Assembly (NCBI RefSeq): GCF_006517625.1
Contig: NZ_VHQI01000001.1
Coordinates: 254,180 to 318,179, forward strand
Direction of reading: 5' to 3'
DNA: 64,000 bases
Source: Mixta tenebrionis
GTDB taxonomy: Bacteria > Pseudomonadota > Gammaproteobacteria > Enterobacterales > Enterobacteriaceae
Both the position numbers and the translations under genes were made by a program. The notes under the pieces were generated by a model. The model did not search any database and was not told the DNA's origin. It saw only the letters and a program-made list of their open reading frames with translations. Below, one piece after another: positions 55,456-64,000 of the stretch (its first letter is position 1; each line of letters begins with the position of its first letter).

Positions 55456-56226
55456 ATGGGTAAAACCTTACGCAGCGGCTTTATGTTCCTCATTTACGCC
55501 TGGCTGTATATTCCGATCGTTATTTTGATCGTCAACTCCTTTAACGCTTCGCGTTTCGGCATCAACTGGCAGGGATTCAGCACCCAGTGGTATGCGCTGC
55601 TGATAAACAACGACAGCCTGATTGAGGCGGCAAAACATTCACTGGCGATGGGCGTACTCTCCGCCAGCTTTGCGACGCTCATCGGCGCGCTGACGGCGGT
55701 GGCGCTCTACCGCTATCGCTTCCGCGGCAAGCCGTTCGTCAGCGGCATGCTGTTTGTGGTGATGATGTCGCCCGATATCGTGATGGCGATTTCGCTGCTG
55801 GTACTGTTTATGCTGCTCGGCATCTCGCTGGGCTTCTGGTCGCTGCTGGTATCGCATATTACCTTCTGTCTGCCGTTCGTGGTAATTACCGTTTACTCGC
55901 GCCTGAAGGGGTTCGATGTACGCATGCTGGAGGCGGCGCGCGATCTCGGCGCCAGCGAGATCACCATCCTGCGTAAAATTATTCTGCCGCTGGCGATGCC
56001 GGCGGTGGCGGCAGGCTGGCTGCTGAGCTTTACCCTGTCGATGGATGATGTGGTGGTTTCCTCCTTCGTCACCGGGCCGGGCTTCGAAATTCTGCCGCTG
56101 AAGATCTATTCGATGGTAAAAGTAGGCGTCTCGCCGGAGGTTAACGCGCTGGCGACGATTCTGATGGTGCTGTCGCTGCTGCTGGTGGCCGGTAGCCAGC
56201 TGCTGCTGCGTGACAAAACAAAATAG
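55456..56226 (+). CDS. potC: Spermidine/putrescine ABC transporter permease PotC
   Basis: This 256-aa permease has six membrane segments and the EAA loop [20 protein letters not shown]. It pairs with PotB in the PotA2BCD importer. GGAG lies 8 nt upstream. Separation from potAB by mig-14 means it needs its own promoter or read-through. potD follows after 11 bp. Confidence 0.95.
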   Translation: MGKTLRSGFMFLIYAWLYIPIVILIVNSFNASRFGINWQGFSTQWYALLINNDSLIEAAKHSLAMGVLSASFATLIGALTAVALYRYRFRGKPFVSGMLFVVMMSPDIVMAISLLVLFMLLGISLGFWSLLVSHITFCLPFVVITVYSRLKGFDVRMLEAARDLGASEITILRKIILPLAMPAVAAGWLLSFTLSMDDVVVSSFVTGPGFEILPLKIYSMVKVGVSPEVNALATILMVLSLLLVAGSQLLLRDKTK

Positions 56227-56237
56227 AGGAAAGGTTA

Positions 56238-57284
56238 ATGAAGAAATGGGGTTACTGGCTGGCGGCTGGGGCGCTGGCGTTGGGCTTACAGAGCGCGCAG
56301 GCTGCCGATGACGGCAAAACGCTTTATTTCTACAACTGGACTGAATATGTGCCGCCGGGACTGCTGGAGCAGTTTACTAAAGAGACCGGCATCAAGGTGA
56401 TCTACTCCACCTATGAATCAAATGAAAGCATGTACGCCAAGCTGAAAACCTACAAGGACGGCGCGTACGATCTGGTGGTGCCTTCCACCTATTTCGTGGC
56501 GAAAATGCGCAACGAAGGTATGATTCAACCAATTGACAAGAGCAAGCTGTCGAACTTCAGCAACCTCGATCCTGAGCTGCTGAACAAGCCGTTCGATCCC
56601 AATAACGATTACTCGATCCCCTATATCTGGGGCGCTACCGCCATTGGAGTGAACAGCGATGTTATCGATGCGCAGAGCATCACCAGCTGGGCGGATCTGT
56701 GGAAGCCGGAATATAAACAGAGCCTGCTGCTGACCGACGACGCGCGCGAAGTGTTCCAGATGGCGCTGCGCAAGCTTGGCTACTCCGGCAACACCCGCGA
56801 CGCCAAAGAGATTAACGCCGCCTACGACGAGCTGAAAAAGCTGATGCCGAACGTGCTGGCGTTTAACTCCGACAACCCCGGCAACCCCTATATGGAAGGC
56901 GAAGTCAACCTCGGTATGATCTGGAACGGCTCGGCATATGTCGCGCGTCAGGCCGGAACGCCGCTGGAGATCGTCTGGCCGAAAGAGGGCGGCATTTTCT
57001 GGATGGACAGCCTGGCGATTCCCGCCAATGCGAAAAACAAAGAGGGCGCGCTGAAGCTGATTAACTTCCTGCTGCGTCCGGAAGTGGCGGCGCAGGTGGC
57101 GGAAACTATCGGCTACCCAACGCCGAACCTGGCGGCGAGAAAGCTGCTGCCGCCGGCGGTGGCTAACGATCCGTCGCTCTACCCTTCCGATGCGGTGATT
57201 AAAAACGGCGAATGGCAGGATGACGTCGGCGACGCCAGCGTACAGTATGAGATGCTGTTCCAGAAGTTGAAGGCGGGACGCTAA
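56238..57284 (+). CDS. potD: Spermidine/putrescine-binding periplasmic protein PotD
   Basis: This 348-aa periplasmic binding protein has a Sec signal ending AQA near residue 22. The mature protein begins ADDGKTLYFYNWTEYVPPG. Polyamine-site residues are in NWTEY and IPYIWGATAIG, and in IWNGSAYVA. It delivers spermidine to PotBC. AGGAAAGG precedes the ATG. A GC hairpin follows the stop. Confidence 0.96.
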   Translation: MKKWGYWLAAGALALGLQSAQAADDGKTLYFYNWTEYVPPGLLEQFTKETGIKVIYSTYESNESMYAKLKTYKDGAYDLVVPSTYFVAKMRNEGMIQPIDKSKLSNFSNLDPELLNKPFDPNNDYSIPYIWGATAIGVNSDVIDAQSITSWADLWKPEYKQSLLLTDDAREVFQMALRKLGYSGNTRDAKEINAAYDELKKLMPNVLAFNSDNPGNPYMEGEVNLGMIWNGSAYVARQAGTPLEIVWPKEGGIFWMDSLAIPANAKNKEGALKLINFLLRPEVAAQVAETIGYPTPNLAARKLLPPAVANDPSLYPSDAVIKNGEWQDDVGDASVQYEMLFQKLKAGR

Positions 57285-57321: not shown

Positions 57322-57347
57322 GCGGAGCATCAGGCTCCGCTTGTTAT
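57322..57347 (+). terminator. Terminator of potCD
   Basis: GCGGAGC and GCTCCGC pair over 7 bp with a 5-nt loop, followed by TTGTTATT. Confidence 0.6.
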
Positions 57348-57439
57348 TACGCGGCGTTGAGGCAGCCCAGAACGCCGCTTTCTTTTATCCAGCGGCAACG
57401 CGCTACAGCATACAGGCGCAGCGCACGACAGCCGCCAGC

Positions 57440-57559
57440 CGCTGCGCATCTGCTGCGCCAGGTTCTGCCCCAGCGGCGCGCCGGGATGGCCTGAATTAGC
57501 CCGCTGCACCGCATCCATACTCAGCACGCAGCGCACTGGCGTTGCTGGTTATTGTTCAT
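57440..57559 (-). pseudogene. Transketolase (tkt) remnant
   Basis: An ATG at 57559 with GGAGGAG upstream follows talA by 17 bp, as tktB follows talA in E. coli. After about a dozen codons that frame stops. In another frame RCVLSMDAVQRANSGHPGAP, followed by LGQNLAQQM, is recognisable as transketolase N-terminal sequence (LSMDAVQKAxSGHPGAPMG in intact enzymes). The full gene needs about 2 kb, so it has suffered a frameshift and a large deletion. The LGQ part may come from the downstream GPLGQG box joined by the deletion. Confidence 0.78.
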
Positions 57560-57575: not shown

Positions 57576-58526
57576 TTACAGCAGCGTAGCCAGCTGTTTT
57601 TCCAGACGGATCTGGTCAGCGGCGAACAGGCGAATACCTTCCGCCAGCTTTTCTACCGCCATCGCATCCTGATGGTGCTGCCAGAGAAATTCCGCCTGCC
57701 CCAACGGGCTGGGGCGCGTCATTCTCACCCCTTCCGGCGCCAGCTGGCGCGTCAGCGGCGCATCGCAGGCCGCCAGCGCATCCAGCAATGCCGGAGAAAT
57801 GGTCAAACGGTCGCAGCCCGCCAGCGCCTGTACCTGTTCAATGCGCCGGAAGCTGGCGCCCATCACGATGGTGTCGTAGCCGTGACTTTTGTAATACTGG
57901 TAGATAGCGCGCACCGAACGCACGCCCGGATCGCTCTCCACGCTGTAGCTTTCCGCCGGCTGATGCTGTTGATACCAGTCATAGATGCGCCCGACAAAGG
58001 GCGAAATTAAAAACACGCCCGCTTCGGCGCAGGCGCGCGCCTGAGCAAATGAGAACAGCAGGGTCAGATTACAGTTGATGCCGCGCTGCTCCAGCTCCCC
58101 GGCGGCGCGTATCCCCTCCCAGGTAGCGGCCAGCTTAATCAGAATGCGCGACGGATCGATACCGTTTTCCTGATAGAGCTGAATTAACTTGCTGGCGTGC
58201 GCCACGCACATGCCGCGATCGAAAGCGTAGCGGGCATCCACCTCGGTAGAGATGCGGCCCGGAATATGGCGCAGCACCTCGGTGCCGATATCCACCGCTA
58301 CCCGATCGCAGGCGTTAAGGAGTTGGGTCTGCGCGCTGCCGCCCTGACGCCGCGCCTTCTCAATGGCGTTGGCGATCAGCGGCTGATACTGCGGCAGCTG
58401 CGCCGCCTTCAGCACCAGCGACGGATTAGTCGTGGCGTCCTGCGGCGCAAATTTTTTGATCGATTCAATATCGCCGCTGTCGGCGACCACCACGGTAAAG
58501 GCCTTAAGCGCCTCAAGCTGGTTCAT
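57576..58526 (-). CDS. talA: Transaldolase A
   Basis: The 316-aa pentose-phosphate enzyme transfers dihydroxyacetone units between sedoheptulose-7-P/glyceraldehyde-3-P and erythrose-4-P/fructose-6-P. The Schiff-base Lys131 is in [13 protein letters not shown], Asp17 in VADSGDIE, and [11 protein letters not shown] is typical. It lies 18 bp after the rpiB-like gene as the last intact gene of the minus-strand operon. Here it may handle erythrose-4-phosphate from C4 sugars. Confidence 0.95.
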
Positions 58527-58544: not shown

Positions 58545-59003
58545 TTACGCTTTGGCATGCTGATGTTCGTAGTAGCTGATGCGCTCCACCTTCGGCGCCG
58601 AGCCGCCGCCCTCATACTCCGCCTGAAGCCACGACTGGATAATGCTCTTACCCAGCTCCTGACCGATAACCCGCGCGCCGAGGGTAATAATCTGCGCGTT
58701 ATTGCTTTTGCGCGCCCGCTCGGCGGAAAAATTGTCATGGCACTGCGCGGCGCGAATGCCCGGCACCTTATTGGCGACGATGCTCATGCCAATGCCGGTG
58801 CCGCAGATTAAAATGCCGCGCTGATGCTCCCCACGCTTAATCGCCATCGCCACCTTATGCGCGACGTCGGGATAAAGCCCCGCCTCGCGATGCTTATCGC
58901 TGCTGTAATCCACCACCTCAATCCCCTGCTCCGTTAAATAACGCACGATGGCGTCACGAAAATCCCACGCGGCATCATCCGCGCCAATAGCGATTGACTT
59001 CAT
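58545..59003 (-). CDS. RpiB/LacAB-type sugar-phosphate isomerase (probable erythrulose-4-P isomerase)
   Basis: This 152-aa RpiB-family isomerase has catalytic Cys67 in ILICGTGIGMSI, and the phosphate-binding CHDNFSAERARKSNNAQ with its essential His. RpiB itself isomerises ribose-5-P. Next to a TPI-like isomerase and transaldolase, a role like DerI/EryI (D-erythrulose-4-P to D-erythrose-4-P) is more likely, but this is inference from context. The 72-bp gap to the PTS IIA gene is small enough for one operon. Confidence 0.88.
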   Translation of the reverse strand: MKSIAIGADDAAWDFRDAIVRYLTEQGIEVVDYSSDKHREAGLYPDVAHKVAMAIKRGEHQRGILICGTGIGMSIVANKVPGIRAAQCHDNFSAERARKSNNAQIITLGARVIGQELGKSIIQSWLQAEYEGGGSAPKVERISYYEHQHAKA

Positions 59004-59075: not shown

Positions 59076-59444
59076 TCAGCCGTAAGAAAAAACAATACGA
59101 TCCCCCACGCTGATTAGCGGCGGCGGCGCGCCGCTGACATGAACGGCGCCGGGTAATTCAGCCTGTTGGGCGCCGTCAAAGCTCAGCGTAATATGTCCCA
59201 GCTGCGCCAGGTTTTTATTCGCCGCCTCGCCAACCGCAGTTATTGCATAAACGCGCTGGTTAATGCGCATTTTCTGCCCCGGCTGAATCAGCTCGTTTAA
59301 TTCACCCGGGCGATGGAGCGCGCAATAGAAAGCAATATCCGCCGGCGCCGGTTCGGCAAACAGGATGAGTTTATTTTCCTGCAGATAGTCCCGCACAAAT
59401 TCCCCTACCGCTCGCACCTCCAGCTGATAAATTAACGCGGCCAT
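59076..59444 (-). CDS. PTS glucitol/sorbitol-type IIA protein (SrlB-like)
   Basis: This 122-aa homologue of E. coli SrlB shares EPAPADIAFYCALHRPGEL (SrlB GAPADLEEYCFIH), YAITAVGEAANKNLAQLGH and the FDGAQQAELPGAVHVSG block. His44 aligns with a conserved SrlB histidine and is the likely phosphorylation site. It would take phosphate from HPr and pass it to a IIB domain. It is 1 bp from the KdgT-like permease gene. No IIC component is visible in the window. Confidence 0.88.
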   Translation of the reverse strand: MAALIYQLEVRAVGEFVRDYLQENKLILFAEPAPADIAFYCALHRPGELNELIQPGQKMRINQRVYAITAVGEAANKNLAQLGHITLSFDGAQQAELPGAVHVSGAPPPLISVGDRIVFSYG

Positions 59445-59445
59445 G

Positions 59446-60468
59446 CTATTTATTTCCTTTGGTAACCTGCGAAGAGAGCGCGATATTTTCCTCTCCTTTA
59501 GCCGCAGCCGCCGCTGTTTCGCTGACGGGCGCGTGGCGTTTTAAGCGTTTATCAAACCACGCCACCATTACCGGCGCGGTAATCATGGTAATAATGCTGG
59601 CGGTGGCCAGCTGGGCGGTGGCTGCATCGACAAATACCGCCAGCGACGGATCGGCCTGCGCCACCATTGCCGGGGTGAGCGCCGAGCTGGCGGCGGTGGT
59701 GCCAAGCGCCGCACCCAGCGCGGTTTTCTTCTTCAGGAAGAAGTTGTACAGAAAGTAAAACAGAATGCCCGTCACGGCGGAGATCAGGCCGAGCAGAATG
59801 CCGGAAAGCCCGGCGGTAAAGACCGTGGTGATGCTGGAGTTAGCGCCGATAGCAAACGACATAATAATAATGATGAGCGGCTGGGCGGCGGCGCAGAGCT
59901 GCTTAAACTTCTCGTCAAGGTTGCCCCACAGCATGCCGATCAGCAACGGAATCAGCATCGACAGCAGCGCGGCGAAGGGAATATTCGCCAGCCCGCTGAC
60001 GCCCAGCACCATCATGGTAACAAAGGGACCATCCTTGATGCAGAACACCGAGATCGCGCCGGCGTCGCTGGCGTCGCCGTAGTTGCTGCACAGCGCGATA
60101 TAGAGCGAGCTGTTAGAGCTGGTTAAGCAGGCCACCAGCGCCAGCATCGAAATACCGAGGAAACCCGCCGGGCCAAACAGCGCTCCCGCTCCCCATACGG
60201 CGATCGCGCCCGCCAGACATTTAAGTATTAATAACACCGCGCCCTTATATAATGGCAGCCCCGCCTGGCGTATATTAATTGAAGCGCCGCAAATTAGCAG
60301 AAATATCCCCATCATCGCGCTGGATCCGGACTTAAATAGCGCGGTGGTTGGCCCGCCGATATTTAACGCTTCGGGCGCGAAGCTGTTAATTAGTATCGCC
60401 GCCAGCAACGGGATAATAATCAAACCGCCGGGTACTTTATTCATTTTCTCAAAAATATTTATTTTCAT
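59446..60468 (-). CDS. KdgT-family permease (2-keto-3-deoxygluconate type)
   Basis: This 340-aa inner-membrane secondary transporter has about ten hydrophobic segments. It matches KdgT proteins: KMNKVPGGLIIIPLLAA at the start, ALVACLTSSNSSLYIAL, and ALGTTAASSALTPAMVA. KdgT is a proton symporter for 2-keto-3-deoxygluconate; relatives next to acid-sugar kinase and PdxA2 genes are thought to carry C4 sugar acids. The ATG at 60468 is chosen; a GTG four codons upstream is possible. It is followed immediately by the PTS IIA gene. Confidence 0.9.
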   Translation of the reverse strand: MKINIFEKMNKVPGGLIIIPLLAAILINSFAPEALNIGGPTTALFKSGSSAMMGIFLLICGASINIRQAGLPLYKGAVLLILKCLAGAIAVWGAGALFGPAGFLGISMLALVACLTSSNSSLYIALCSNYGDASDAGAISVFCIKDGPFVTMMVLGVSGLANIPFAALLSMLIPLLIGMLWGNLDEKFKQLCAAAQPLIIIIMSFAIGANSSITTVFTAGLSGILLGLISAVTGILFYFLYNFFLKKKTALGAALGTTAASSALTPAMVAQADPSLAVFVDAATAQLATASIITMITAPVMVAWFDKRLKRHAPVSETAAAAAKGEENIALSSQVTKGNK

Positions 60469-60607
60469 GATATAACTCACTTAATTAACCGGAAAGAGAG
60501 TGAGTAACGGCGAAATAAACCACCCGTACGACTATTACGCCGTCAGTCTGGTATTGATAAGTAATTAGCTATAATTTATTATTGGCAGCAGGCTACAGAA
60601 ATAAAAA

Positions 60608-62320
60608 TCACTGCGCTTCCTGATAAATATGCGCAATGATAGTTTCGATAATATCCTCCGGGCCGGTTAGTCCGCCTTTTCCTACGCAAACCAGTCCGGC
60701 CCATGGCCCGCCGATAATTCTGACCATATCGGTTTGCGGAATAACATAGTCAATCATTTCAATACCGGTAGCGCCCAGCGCTTTCAGCACGTTGACCATG
60801 GTATCGCCGCCGGTCATATAGAGCCCTTTAATTTCCGCCGCAGCGCAGTGCAATACTTCACGCACGATCGCTCCCAGCCCGCTGTTGATGTTTTCCGCCG
60901 CCTGCCCGTGCGCCAGGCCAAAGCGCGCTTCCTCCTGATGCAGATTCAGCAGCCGCCCGGTCAGGGCCGATTCAAACACCAACAGCGCGTTTTTATGCTG
61001 CGGCACGCACAGCTTCGCCTGACGCACTACCCGATTTACCTCGATCTCCGCCGCATTCTGCCGATCGACCAGCAGTTCGGCATCTACCGGGATATGACAA
61101 ATATTGGCGTGACTATCGATAAGGTAGCGCAGCTGTTTTTTCGTTACCGCCGTGGCGCTGCCGGCCACGATAACGATCGAACCTGAGGCTTTTTCCGGCA
61201 GCGCCGTCGGCAGCGAGCGCCGTGGCTCATGCATTAATCCACGCCGCGCCGCCAGCCGTTCGGTAAACGGCCCAGGGTCCACCGCCAGTACGTTCCAGCC
61301 CAGCGCCACTACCGCGCCGGCAATGGCATCCACATCCTCGATAGCGATGGCGTCCAGCACAATCACCCGCACGCCGCGCTGCTGCTGCGCCAGCAGATCC
61401 GCTTCGATCTGCGGTTTTCCCTTCATTACCGAAGAGAGGGCGATATGTCCCACCTGGTGCTGCGTCTGTTCCGCCAGCAGCCCCGGCACCCAGGACTCGG
61501 TTACCGGCGTGCGCACGTCGCGCGCCACGTCGGTACAGGAGAGCGCTACCGAATCGATAACCGAATAGCCGCCAACCAGAATGCGTCTGGACTGCGGCAT
61601 CGCGGGCACCACCAGCGCGATCGTTTCCCCCGGCAGCCGCGCCAGCATGGCATCGATCTCATAACCGATCCCGCCGCGCAGCGTGGTATCGATGCGCTTG
61701 GTAAAATAGCGAGCGCCGCGCGCCTGCAGCGCCGCTACCGCCGCCCCTACCCGCTGCTGCGCCTCCGCCTTCGGTAATGCCCGACTGTCGCTGCTGATCA
61801 CCATCGCCGGATAGTCGGCATCGCTGTGCGCAAAGGAATCGGTATCAAAAAAAGCGGCGCTTTTCAGGCCGCTGCGCGCCAGCAGTACGCCAACGGTGGT
61901 CGCGCCGGTTAAATCATCCGCCACAATGCCGAGCAGCCCGCCTTCCCCGCGCGGCCAGACGGCTTCGATACTGGCGGGCGTTACGCCGGACACGTAGATC
62001 TCTTCATGGATATAGTCCGCCAGCGGCCCGCTTTTACCGGTAGGATGCAGGTTAATGGTGGGAATGCCCCGTTTCGGATAGAGCCCGCAGCGCAGGGTGC
62101 CGCCGCAGTCGATCACCATCAGGCCGATCTCCTCCTCCGGCGGCTCGCCGTTTTTAAACACGTCCAGCGCGGGCCAGCCGGTCAGCTCGCACAGGCGTTC
62201 AACAACCGAAGGGCAGATGCCCCCGGTGATATAGGCGATTTTTTTCCCTGGCGTTACGGCAATTTTTAACGGGCCGCCCCAGCCTTTACTGCCCCTGCTG
62301 ATTAACAGATATTTTTCCAT
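60608..62320 (-). CDS. Fusion: PTS glucitol-type IIB domain + DUF1537 acid-sugar kinase
   Basis: The 570-aa product has two parts. Residues 1-115 match the N-terminal IIB domain of E. coli SrlE ([48 protein letters not shown]), with candidate phospho-Cys72 and Cys78. From about residue 129 a complete four-carbon acid-sugar kinase follows: [16 protein letters not shown] at its N-terminus, [15 protein letters not shown], and the C-terminal nucleotide site [14 protein letters not shown] ... GGPWAG. The kinase would 4-phosphorylate D-threonate or D-erythronate. The ATG at 62320 has AGGA 8 nt upstream. pdxA2 ends 28 bp before it. No frameshift is present, so this is a true fusion. Confidence 0.9.
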
Positions 62321-62348: not shown

Positions 62349-63362
62349 TCAGGCCTGGCCGTGCTTCATCTTCCAGTAGCGCGCGGCTACCAGCGTCGAT
62401 TCCAGCATGCTGACCGTGCCCGCCTTGCCGGTGCCGGCAATATCAAACGCGGTGCCGTGATCCACTGAACTGCGCATAAACGGCAGGCCGAAGGTAATGG
62501 TGACGGAGCGTTCAAAATCGAGCGTTTTACAGGCGATATGCCCCTGATCGTGATAAAGCGAGAGGATGGCGTCGTAGTTGCCCAGTTTGCCAAGGTGGAA
62601 TACCGAATCCGCCGGCACCGGGCCGACGGCGTTGATGCCCATCTCCTGCGCGGCTTTGACCGCCGGAATCAGGTTATCCGCCTCTTCATGACCAAACAGA
62701 CCGTTGTCGGAGCCATGCGGATTTAGCGCCGCTACCGCAATACGCGGCCGGGCAATATTCAGCGCGGTAAATTCATGGTGGATCTGCTGGATGCAGGCCA
62801 GCACGCGCTCTTTACTGGCGTAATCGCAGGCCGCTTTCAGCGCCATATGGCGGCTGACAAAAAAGACGCGCAGGTTATGTACGTGGAACATGGTCAACCC
62901 ATAATCGGAATGGGTTTCCACCTGATAGATTTCGGTATGCCCCGGCAGCTTGCAGCCTGCCAGCTTGATCGCCTCTTTATGTATCGGCGCGGTAGATACC
63001 ACGTCGATATCCCCTGCCAGCCCCAGCTCGATCGATTTCATAACGTAATCAAGCGACATCTTGCCCGCCAGCGGCTGCACTTTGCCCCAGACGATGCTGT
63101 CGCAGTCATACTGCTGCGGCTCCAGCACATCGATGGCGCCCCAGCTAAAGCGCGCCTGGCTGGGATGAGTAATGTTATGGATGGGAAAATGACAGCCCTG
63201 AATTTTCATTGCCCGCTCAATAATCGCTACGGAACCGATCACGAAAGGACGGCATTCCTGATAAACGCTTTTTTCCATCAGGGTGGCGACGACGATCTCC
63301 GGGCCGATGCCGGCCGGATCGCCCAGGGTCAGTGCGACTACAGGTTTTTTCTCATGCGCCAT
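62349..63362 (-). CDS. pdxA2: PdxA2-type 4-phospho-threonate/erythronate dehydrogenase
   Basis: This 337-aa PdxA-family oxidative decarboxylase begins [17 protein letters not shown]. The metal His residues are in [20 protein letters not shown] and [13 protein letters not shown]. Together with a DUF1537 kinase it fits the PdxA2 branch, which turns 4-phospho-D-threonate/erythronate into DHAP and CO2 rather than acting in vitamin B6 synthesis. The ATG at 63362 has GGGAGAAG just upstream; the ATG at 63395 lies inside operator-like repeats and is unlikely. First gene of the minus-strand operon. Confidence 0.92.
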
Positions 63363-63387
63363 ATCTTCTCCCTCACAATAGTTAATT

Positions 63388-63538
63388 ATGTTCATATGTT
63401 CACTTACTTAACATGTGATCAAAAACATATCCGATGAATACCCTGTTTATAGTGACTGATATCACATTTAAAATTTTCACAGCGCTTTCGTGTTAATTTT
63501 GTGATCTAACATATGTTCAATAATAAATAATATGTTCA
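63388..63538. promoter_or_regulatory. Divergent operator region with ATGTTCA repeats
   Basis: ATGTTCA occurs four times in the same orientation: 63388-63394, 63396-63402, 63513-63519 and 63532-63538. The third is part of a perfect palindrome AACATATGTT (63508-63517). One pair lies near each divergent gene. Such heptamer repeats suit a DeoR- or GntR-type repressor, which is not in the window. Confidence 0.55.
63451..63466. promoter_or_regulatory. Near-consensus CRP site
   Basis: AGTGA-CTGATA-TCACA matches TGTGA-N6-TCACA at 9 of 10 positions. It lies centrally between the divergent pdxA2-like operon and the TPI-like gene, consistent with catabolite control of both. Confidence 0.7.
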
Positions 63539-63602: not shown

Positions 63603-64000
63603 ATGAAAAAAGTGTGGGTAGGCACCAGCTGGAAGATGAATAAACCGCTATCGGAAGCGCAGGCCTGGTGCGAAGCGCTGGCGTACCTGCTGCCGCCGGT
63701 GCTGCATGAGGCAGTGCAGCCCTTTGTGATCCCGCCTTTTACCGCCATTCAGCCGGTTACCCGCTGGCTGGCGGAGCAGCAGCTGCCCTGCCTGACCGGC
63801 GGGCAAAATATGCATGAAGCGGAAAGCGGCGCCTGGACCGGCGAGATTTCCGCCAGCATGCTGCTGGAGGCAGGAGCCTCGCTGGTTGAGCTGGGCCATT
63901 CCGAACGGCGGGCCAGCTTTAATGAGAGCGACGGCGCCATCAACCGCAAAGTTCATACAGCCCTGCGGCACGGCCTGCGCCCGCTGATCTGTATCGGCGA
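63603..64000 (+). CDS. Triose-phosphate-isomerase-like (probable erythrulose-1-P isomerase), 5' part
   Basis: The frame is open to the window edge, so only the first about 132 codons are present. The product begins MKKVWVGTSWKMNKPLSEA. The TPI lysine (Lys11) and catalytic His99 (LVELGHSERR) are visible. The SWKMNK opening differs from housekeeping TpiA (NWKLNG) and is like LerI/EryH, which isomerise L-erythrulose-1-P to D-erythrulose-4-P. AAGGAG lies upstream of the ATG. It is divergent from the pdxA2-like operon and shares its control region. Confidence 0.85.
   Translation, partial: MKKVWVGTSWKMNKPLSEAQAWCEALAYLLPPVLHEAVQPFVIPPFTAIQPVTRWLAEQQLPCLTGGQNMHEAESGAWTGEISASMLLEAGASLVELGHSERRASFNESDGAINRKVHTALRHGLRPLICIG

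Follow-up and report, generated by a model that had tools for sequence, protein, structure and literature searches.

Enzymes outside the PTS can be controlled by PTS proteins, either through docking or through the phosphorylation of regulators, and in DhaKLM, a PTS-dependent dihydroxyacetone kinase, DhaM phosphorylates ADP on DhaL. Here we describe a protein encoded in a 64,000-nucleotide stretch of Mixta tenebrionis DNA (the window) in which a glucitol-type PTS IIB domain is fused to a DUF1537 acid-sugar kinase. As in DhaKLM, PTS phosphate would reach a soluble kinase without a IIC, which for the fusion is our proposal; unlike DhaKLM, the fusion kinase keeps an ordinary nucleotide-binding domain, and none of the seven proteins scanned has a Pfam match to DhaK, DhaL, or DhaM domains. 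For the IIB domain the nearest known system is the E. coli glucitol PTS (SrlA-SrlE-SrlB). The fused IIB shares 61–69% identity with the SrlE IIB in five relatives (those whose SrlE matched over the whole IIB part; other SrlE matches go down to 43%), fused IIBs and SrlE have 47 invariant residues in common, and a GutA-type IIA is encoded nearby. The fusion differs in having a kinase in place of the SrlE membrane part, and 9 of 18 fusion genomes are without glucitol IIC genes. Another soluble sugar-phosphate enzyme with a PTS IIB is indicated by the title of the model NF011497 (PRK14905), a TIM-PTS IIB fusion; in contrast to the protein described here, its IIB is of the glucose/sucrose type and sits on an isomerase. 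We know of no demonstrated function for that fusion.

The operon around the fusion also has relatives. One is the tetritol/D-apiose branch LerI-DerI (PMC10733421; Carter et al. 2018, as cited by others): among solved structures LerI is the nearest to the operon's TpiA2, and the DerI model gives the operon's RpiB a higher score than the rpiB model does, although the protein falls under the DerI cut-off and over the rpiB cut-off. Entry into the operon's pathway is by a DUF1537 kinase and PdxA2, not by a tetrulose kinase or a RuBisCO-like decarboxylase. The D-threonate pathway of DtnK (DUF1537) and PdxA2 (Zhang et al. 2016, as cited in PMC10971088 and PMC7954711) likewise pairs a kinase with a PdxA2-type dehydrogenase; here, by contrast, a PTS IIB and IIA as well as TpiA2, RpiB, Tal, and Tkt are added, and the kinase scores far under the DtnK cut-off. 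PMC4921024 reports a DUF1537 fused to a PLP-pathway gene, with no PTS domain. Our search of the open-access literature (open-licence PMC papers only, which does not prove absence) found no description of an IIB-DUF1537 fusion.

A Glucitol-Type IIB Domain on a Complete DUF1537 Kinase

The fusion is a single ORF on the minus strand (60608..62320, with the ATG at 62320 and the stop ending at 60608) that encodes 570 amino acids. Its parts are as follows:

61967..62320, minus strand: glucitol-type PTS IIB domain, residues 1-118 (PF03612, E 2.4e-47; 47 invariant residues)
62105..62107, minus strand: Cys72 codon, putative phospho-acceptor by SrlE homology (Cys in 24/24 fused rows and 15/15 SrlE)
62087..62089, minus strand: Cys78 codon, second conserved cysteine (alignment with SrlE, codon checked)
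60611..61933, minus strand: DUF1537 acid-sugar kinase (SBD_N and NBD_C), residues 130-570 (PF07005, PF17042)

Pfam places EIIBC-GUT_N (PF03612) at residues 6-121 (161.5 bits, cut-off 22.8); the match spans profile positions 3-118 of 184, which is the IIB part, and the best solved relative of residues 4-121 is SrlE (9x2m, E 3.2e-48). The phospho-acceptor role of Cys72 is presumably the one carried over from SrlE. After a linker of ∼10 residues comes a complete DUF1537 kinase with both of its halves, SBD_N (PF07005) at residues 130-355 (E 3.4e-58) and NBD_C (PF17042) at residues 383-557 (E 5e-29). DUF1537 structures are the best solved relatives of residues 127-525, among them 4xfm (E 5.3e-32), which we take to be a DUF1537 protein although its PDB entry is titled "uncharacterized protein". 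The motifs ADDLTGA, AGSA, TGGDT, and GKGGLTG, which we assume to be functional motifs of DUF1537 kinases, are invariant in 23 aligned kinases, 15 fused and 8 without a IIB. The SrlE membrane part and IIC domains PF07663 and PF03608 are absent from the fusion protein in the Pfam scan.

The Pfam match, the match to 9x2m, and the Cys72 and Cys78 codons bear out the first-pass annotation of this DNA, which had placed a glucitol-type IIB with both cysteines on an acid-sugar kinase. It had also called the kinase a complete four-carbon acid-sugar kinase; the completeness holds, with SBD_N and NBD_C both there, whereas "four-carbon" is only a family label, because the kinase reaches the cut-off of no named substrate model. 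The K. pneumoniae annotation of the fusion reads simply "four-carbon acid sugar kinase family protein". Apart from the one in the window, there are 23 more fused ORFs (24 rows in all, two of them from one contig), and these exclude a sequencing error joining two genes or an assembly artefact.

Operon Organization and a Shared Chromosomal Site

On the minus strand the gene order is pdxA2, IIB-kinase, kdgT, gutA (the PTS IIA), rpiB, tal. The tpiA2 gene is divergent from pdxA2 and is followed by a SorC-type regulator, beyond the window in the stretch L023. The features around the fusion are as follows:

63603..64000, plus strand: start of TpiA2, L-erythrulose-1-phosphate isomerase-like (continues past the window into L023)
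63451..63466, no strand assigned: CRP-like site, tpiA2-pdxA2 intergenic (sole match with ≤1 mismatch in the 64-kb window)
62349..63395, minus strand: PdxA2-type dehydrogenase of the PdxA family (PF04166; NF002992, 575.7 bits, cut-off 470)
59446..60480, minus strand: KdgT-type sugar-acid permease (PF03812, E 5.8e-109)
59076..59444, minus strand: GutA, glucitol-type PTS IIA (PF03829, E 8.3e-36; His44 and His84 checked)
58545..59003, minus strand: RpiB-family isomerase, for ribose 5-phosphate or D-erythrulose 4-phosphate (NCBIfam models)
57576..58526, minus strand: transaldolase (NF009001, 563.6 bits)
57333..57548 (L023:3513-3728), minus strand: transketolase gene remnant (61% over 31 residues)

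The kdgT stop and the gutA ATG are 1 base apart, and the permease scores 168.5 bits against the 453.8 bits of the kdgT equivalog. The transketolase gene after tal is whole in K. pneumoniae and Mixta theicola and reduced to the 31-residue remnant in the window's genome. GutA, on which the first-pass annotation was silent, is the predicted natural partner of the fused IIB.

Taken alone, the CRP-like site is not beyond chance, as 57 of 100 shuffles of the window also yield a match with ≤1 mismatch. Across genomes, a site with ≤1 mismatch falls in one 25-base span, 139–163 bases before the GDPAG codons of pdxA2, at 19 of 24 loci, namely 18 of the 23 with the fusion plus that of G034, a genome whose kinase is without the IIB; for the control of this positional count, each region was simply shuffled. 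At the other five loci (Intestinirhabdus; Serratia, with two mismatches; Zophobihabitans; G386; and G021) no such site was found at that span.

The window's genome has the operon at a chromosomal site, bounded by pot genes and by cobB/nagK (window positions 55456-57284 and L023:11627-13423), that it shares with K. pneumoniae, K. oxytoca, and Enterobacter sp. EA-1. A 275 kb K. pneumoniae record labelled as a plasmid (NZ_CP098173.1, L022) carries mfd, lolCDE, nagK, cobB, the operon, and the pot genes and looks like chromosomal DNA. In K. pneumoniae ATCC 13883 (L030) an in-frame stop splits TpiA2 near locus position 8130, where L151 has a tryptophan codon. Operon genes are split into short frames in Enterobacter sp. 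EA-1 (L057/L027) and Pectobacterium sp. PL152 (L050); for EA-1 a poor assembly is likelier than decay, because that genome is rated 49% complete.

Distribution and Origin of the Fusion

A contig scan with a kinase-only alignment returned 80 loci, of which 37 (L029-L065) were examined and L066-L108 (26–36% identical) were left out. The IIB is present at the same gene in 16 of the 37 (L029-L039, L047, L050, L054, L057, and L058), with the kinase frame fragmented in L050 and L057. Another 16 encode kinases 41–57% identical and without a IIB, from Bacillaceae, Lachnospiraceae/Clostridiales/Eubacteriales, and Actinobacteria, and the remaining five are more distant and likewise without it. In the family sample a close kinase was found in 13 of 392 genomes, 12 with the IIB and one (G034) without, and the class-wide search gave a single genome out of 369, the window's own. 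An order-wide search with the IIB gave 57 matches in 51 of 394 genomes; in G000 and G1099 only the IIB part of a 585-residue frame was matched, which yielded one further fusion. With G004 (the same as L058) and G087 (the same as L034) each counted once, 27 genomes have the fusion, and the orthologues span Klebsiella, Raoultella, Kosakonia, Pantoea, Erwinia, Serratia, Pectobacterium, and Zophobihabitans. A K. pneumoniae record in the plasmid collection added one more full-length fusion, with 81% identity. None of 5426 E. coli genomes had a match covering 80% of the query, and all 15 of the matches listed were srlE.

In a tree of IIB sequences, a branch with support 94/89 parts 24 fused rows, among which L034 and L156 are one contig counted twice, from 16 SrlE rows (16 of 18, with L118 and L129 in and L012 and L114 out). 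Four loci, G158 (whose kinase has one in-frame stop), the fragmented L050 and L057, and G1099, were used for gene order only, outside the IIB alignment and tree. Zophobihabitans (Orbaceae) branches deepest among the fused rows. Because the fused rows fall on one side of the branch, a single fusion event is the simplest history. In the GutA tree the operon group needs two changes, and a single origin occurs in 8% of bootstrap trees.

Conservation of the IIB Domain and GutA

The 47 invariant residues, Cys72 and Cys78 among them, were counted across the 24 fused IIB rows and 15 of the 18 SrlE, leaving out L012 and L118, which are misplaced fragments, as well as L129, a second SrlE that is divergent. 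IIB identity exceeds kinase identity in 252 of 276 pairs (means 0.805 versus 0.765). In the 29 pairs with kinase dS <1, IIB dN/dS is 0–0.25, with 20 pairs at 0.03–0.08, and the kinase is similar. Judged by these comparisons, the IIB is under purifying selection and is conserved as much as the kinase. GutA is looser than the IIB (dN/dS 0.06–0.54 in the same 29 pairs, one of them undefined) and fast-evolving, with a mean identity of 53%. Of 22 operon GutA rows, 21 have its His44, which aligns with SrlB His43, presumably the phospho-histidine; the exception is Pantoea sp. A4, where another residue takes this position in the sole GutA of the genome. His84 is kept in all 22.

Fusion and GutA in Genomes without a Glucitol IIC

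We searched 18 fusion genomes for a glucitol IIC (20 genomes in all, with G011 and G034 not counted here). Nine of the 18, the window's included, have no PF07663 (the membrane part of SrlE), and the same nine have no PF03608 (SrlA), in this case among 17 fusion genomes (without G035). GutA is encoded in all 18, exactly once in each of the nine IIC-less genomes. Three of the nine (G000, G004, and G021) are rated 100% complete, ratings being reported for these three only, and another (G073) is a metagenome assembly. The one PF03612 match in the window's genome is the fusion itself. The first-pass annotation saw no obvious transport role for a IIB on a kinase; in line with this, the IIC is missing both from the protein and from the window's genome. 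HPr and EI were present in all 10 genomes searched for them (the nine and G034). Because nine of these 18 fusion genomes are without a glucitol IIC, sorbitol uptake cannot be the task of the fusion and GutA in those nine. Together with the selection on the IIB, the same absence led us to reject a leftover of a sorbitol system as the explanation.

GutA adjoins the fusion locus in 24 of the 26 genomes in which the place is visible, and in those 24 kdgT is the neighbor of gutA; the contig of Serratia sp. H1w stops inside kdgT and is therefore outside this count. The two fusions without GutA in the surrounding stretch are those of Zophobihabitans, which has two GutA genes elsewhere, and G1099.

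The converse arrangement occurs in G034. Its kinase begins with the fusion's initial 12 residues (MEKHSLMGKGSK) and continues directly, in frame, with the kinase part; because those residues remain, the IIB was lost rather than never gained. We found no GutA, PF03612, or PF07663 in the G034 genome, which keeps pdxA2 (85%), the kinase (70%), kdgT (86.5%), and tal (77%). The 18 kb around the kinase contain no TpiA2, RpiB, Tkt, GutA, or regulator, and because of these other absences the joint loss of IIB and GutA may be one of several unrelated losses. Neither IIB nor GutA was found at any of the 16 loci with kinases 41–57% identical (blastp E up to 1e-4; flanks of ≤10 kb, often less). From this comparison, IIB and GutA look as if they were added as a pair to an ATP kinase, and the catalytic unit stands without them. 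Evolution seems to have cut a IIB from a transporter and welded it to a metabolic kinase, with the IIA kept even in transporter-less genomes. In G011, SrlE (L028:7570-8835) has ∼100 extra residues, many of them Ala or Gly, between its IIB and membrane parts.

Proposed Mechanism and Competing Explanations

We lean toward the view that the fusion forms a membrane-less PTS relay on the kinase of a sugar-acid operon, in which the phosphorylation state of the IIB sets kinase activity; we rate this as somewhat probable. KdgT would import the sugar acid, and the kinase would phosphorylate it with ATP. Phosphate from PEP would pass through EI, HPr, and GutA-His44 to IIB-Cys72, and the charge on the IIB would determine how active the kinase is. 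Our guess at the sign of this control, modeled on glycerol kinase and EIIA-Glc, is that the kinase would be active when the IIB is phosphorylated, i.e., when no preferred PTS sugar is flowing. The first committed step would then obey the same kind of signal as the upstream CRP-like site: cAMP-CRP would control transcription, and on top of this GutA and the IIB would act immediately, on the enzyme itself. Because the NBD_C motifs are invariant with and without a IIB, ATP is the likely donor and the IIB the likely controller. Gating by the PTS phosphorylation state was one of two roles raised in the first-pass annotation, and it is the likeliest reading of the present data; its case is stronger because a IIA is encoded in the operon, the pair is kept without a IIC, and G034 is without both partners. 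The other role, direct delivery of phosphate or sugar, is unsupported: the NBD_C motifs are the same without the IIB, and permease and kinase occur as a IIB-less unit. KdgT as a stand-in for the IIC found no support either, as KdgT and the kinase occur together without a IIB in G034 and in L044-L046, which are Lachnospiraceae/Clostridiales/Eubacteriales loci.

A different target for the same PTS proteins would be the permease. EIIA-Glc acts on permeases by inducer exclusion, and with this precedent GutA and the IIB might chiefly control KdgT, the unphosphorylated proteins binding it and the fusion tethering the kinase so that uptake and phosphorylation are coupled. The single base between kdgT and gutA in the window, and the adjacency of the two genes in the 24 genomes with GutA beside the fusion, would fit such contact, but gene order is weak evidence of contact, KdgT of G034 (86.5% identical) remains without IIB or GutA, and a IIB borne on the kinase would be left without a clear job; we regard this explanation as unlikely. 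Rather less likely still is a IIB that serves as second phosphate donor, with the sugar acid or kinase-bound ADP receiving phosphate from Cys72~P so that the kinase would run on PEP in a Dha-like manner. Glucitol IIB phosphorylates the terminal hydroxyl of an open-chain sugar and DUF1537 kinases do likewise, which would suit this chemistry, as would the short linker, the presence of IIA and IIB without a IIC, and the precedent of the dihydroxyacetone kinase system. Against it, the NBD_C motifs remain intact, the IIB is dispensed with in G034 and in those Firmicute homologues that were examined, and to our knowledge no IIB acts on a sugar without a IIC. We give a similarly small chance to the composite proposal that PEP phosphate flows through GutA and the attached IIB into the acid sugar or ADP, driving the kinase, as the entry to a new branched-C5-acid pathway into erythrose 4-phosphate. 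The IIB might instead be a passenger, acquired when a piece of a duplicated srl operon happened to fuse with the kinase, and retained because it helps folding or stability. A single origin from an SrlE-like IIB is compatible with the tree, G034 lost its IIB and retained the kinase, and GutA is loosely constrained, His44 even being lost in one genome; purifying selection on the IIB, both cysteines in 24 of 24 rows, and a GutA retained next to the fusion in 24 of 26 genomes nevertheless make this the most improbable of the explanations weighed here.

Control of the kinase by the IIB is the reading we prefer. A IIC-less PTS branch on a metabolic kinase is a variant of the known PTS control of non-PTS enzymes, and the comparisons above suggest that the sugar status of the cell switches this kinase on and off in several gut and plant bacteria. 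If the switch is true, it would be a portable, ready-made module for tying enzyme activity to PEP/PTS status, and it would allow a direct test of whether a IIB signals without a IIC.

Substrate and Pathway

Activity on D-threonate and D-erythronate had been proposed for the kinase at the outset, an assignment that now looks doubtful. The kinase scores 201.1 bits with the D-threonate kinase DtnK model NF047819 (cut-off 450), far under the cut-off, on which ground we rejected that identity, and 146 bits with the 3-oxo-tetronate kinase model (cut-off 350); moreover, TpiA2 is nearest to L-erythrulose-1-phosphate isomerase among PDB chains. The substrate is thus probably not D-threonate.

The TpiA2 comparison is similar in two genomes. 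The window's protein matches L-erythrulose-1-phosphate isomerase at 202.8 bits and the best triosephosphate isomerase at 169.9, and the K. pneumoniae protein at 217.2 and 174.9 bits; the window's protein also passes the NCBI triose-phosphate isomerase model NF000722 (357.5 versus 293 bits). Its motifs GTSWKMN and ELGHSERR resemble those of 11ef, whereas 1yya has GNWKM and IVGHSERR. GTSWKMN occurs at 22 of 27 fusion loci (L034 and L156 being one contig), the other five showing no TpiA2, and E-L/M-GHSERR accompanies it at 21 of the 22; the five Bacillaceae loci all have GTNWKM. RpiB scores 173.6 bits with the DerI model NF051858, under its cut-off of 240, and passes the rpiB equivalog TIGR01120 (141.4 versus 138.65), and its PDB matches are ribose-5-phosphate isomerases.

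Tal and Tkt consume erythrose 4-phosphate. Because TpiA2 resembles L-erythrulose-1-phosphate isomerase, a C5 acid that enters at erythrose 4-phosphate is hinted at. Our tentative candidate, possible though on balance doubtful, is a C5 acid, perhaps a 2-C-hydroxymethyl-tetronate (isoapionate type), with a route via L-erythrulose 1-phosphate to erythrose 4-phosphate. PdxA2 would oxidize and decarboxylate the phosphorylated acid to L-erythrulose 1-phosphate, TpiA2 and RpiB would convert this to erythrose 4-phosphate, and Tal/Tkt would carry the product into central metabolism. By our own chemical reasoning, helped by the D-apiose pathway, a PdxA-type reaction that gives L-erythrulose 1-phosphate would need 2-C-hydroxymethyl-tetronate 4-phosphate. 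LerI followed by DerI leads to erythrose 4-phosphate (PMC10733421), and the D-apiose pathway includes decarboxylation of 3-oxo-isoapionate 4-phosphate (PMC6302742). A straight pentonate leading to D-erythrulose 4-phosphate is a possible alternative, as is a C4 acid leading to DHAP, with an ordinary triosephosphate isomerase and RpiB. The pathway around the fusion is possibly new, and the operon hints at an undescribed route from a C5 sugar acid to erythrose 4-phosphate in common enterobacteria, including K. pneumoniae.

Two further observations concern related kinase loci. The window's own genome has a second DUF1537 kinase, 31% identical, on another contig (C12; locus L002), with one TAA inside the match. 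In a Bacillus sp. (L040:4787-5794), a GlpX-type fructose-bisphosphatase gene adjoins those for transketolase, RpiB, PdxA2, and the kinase.
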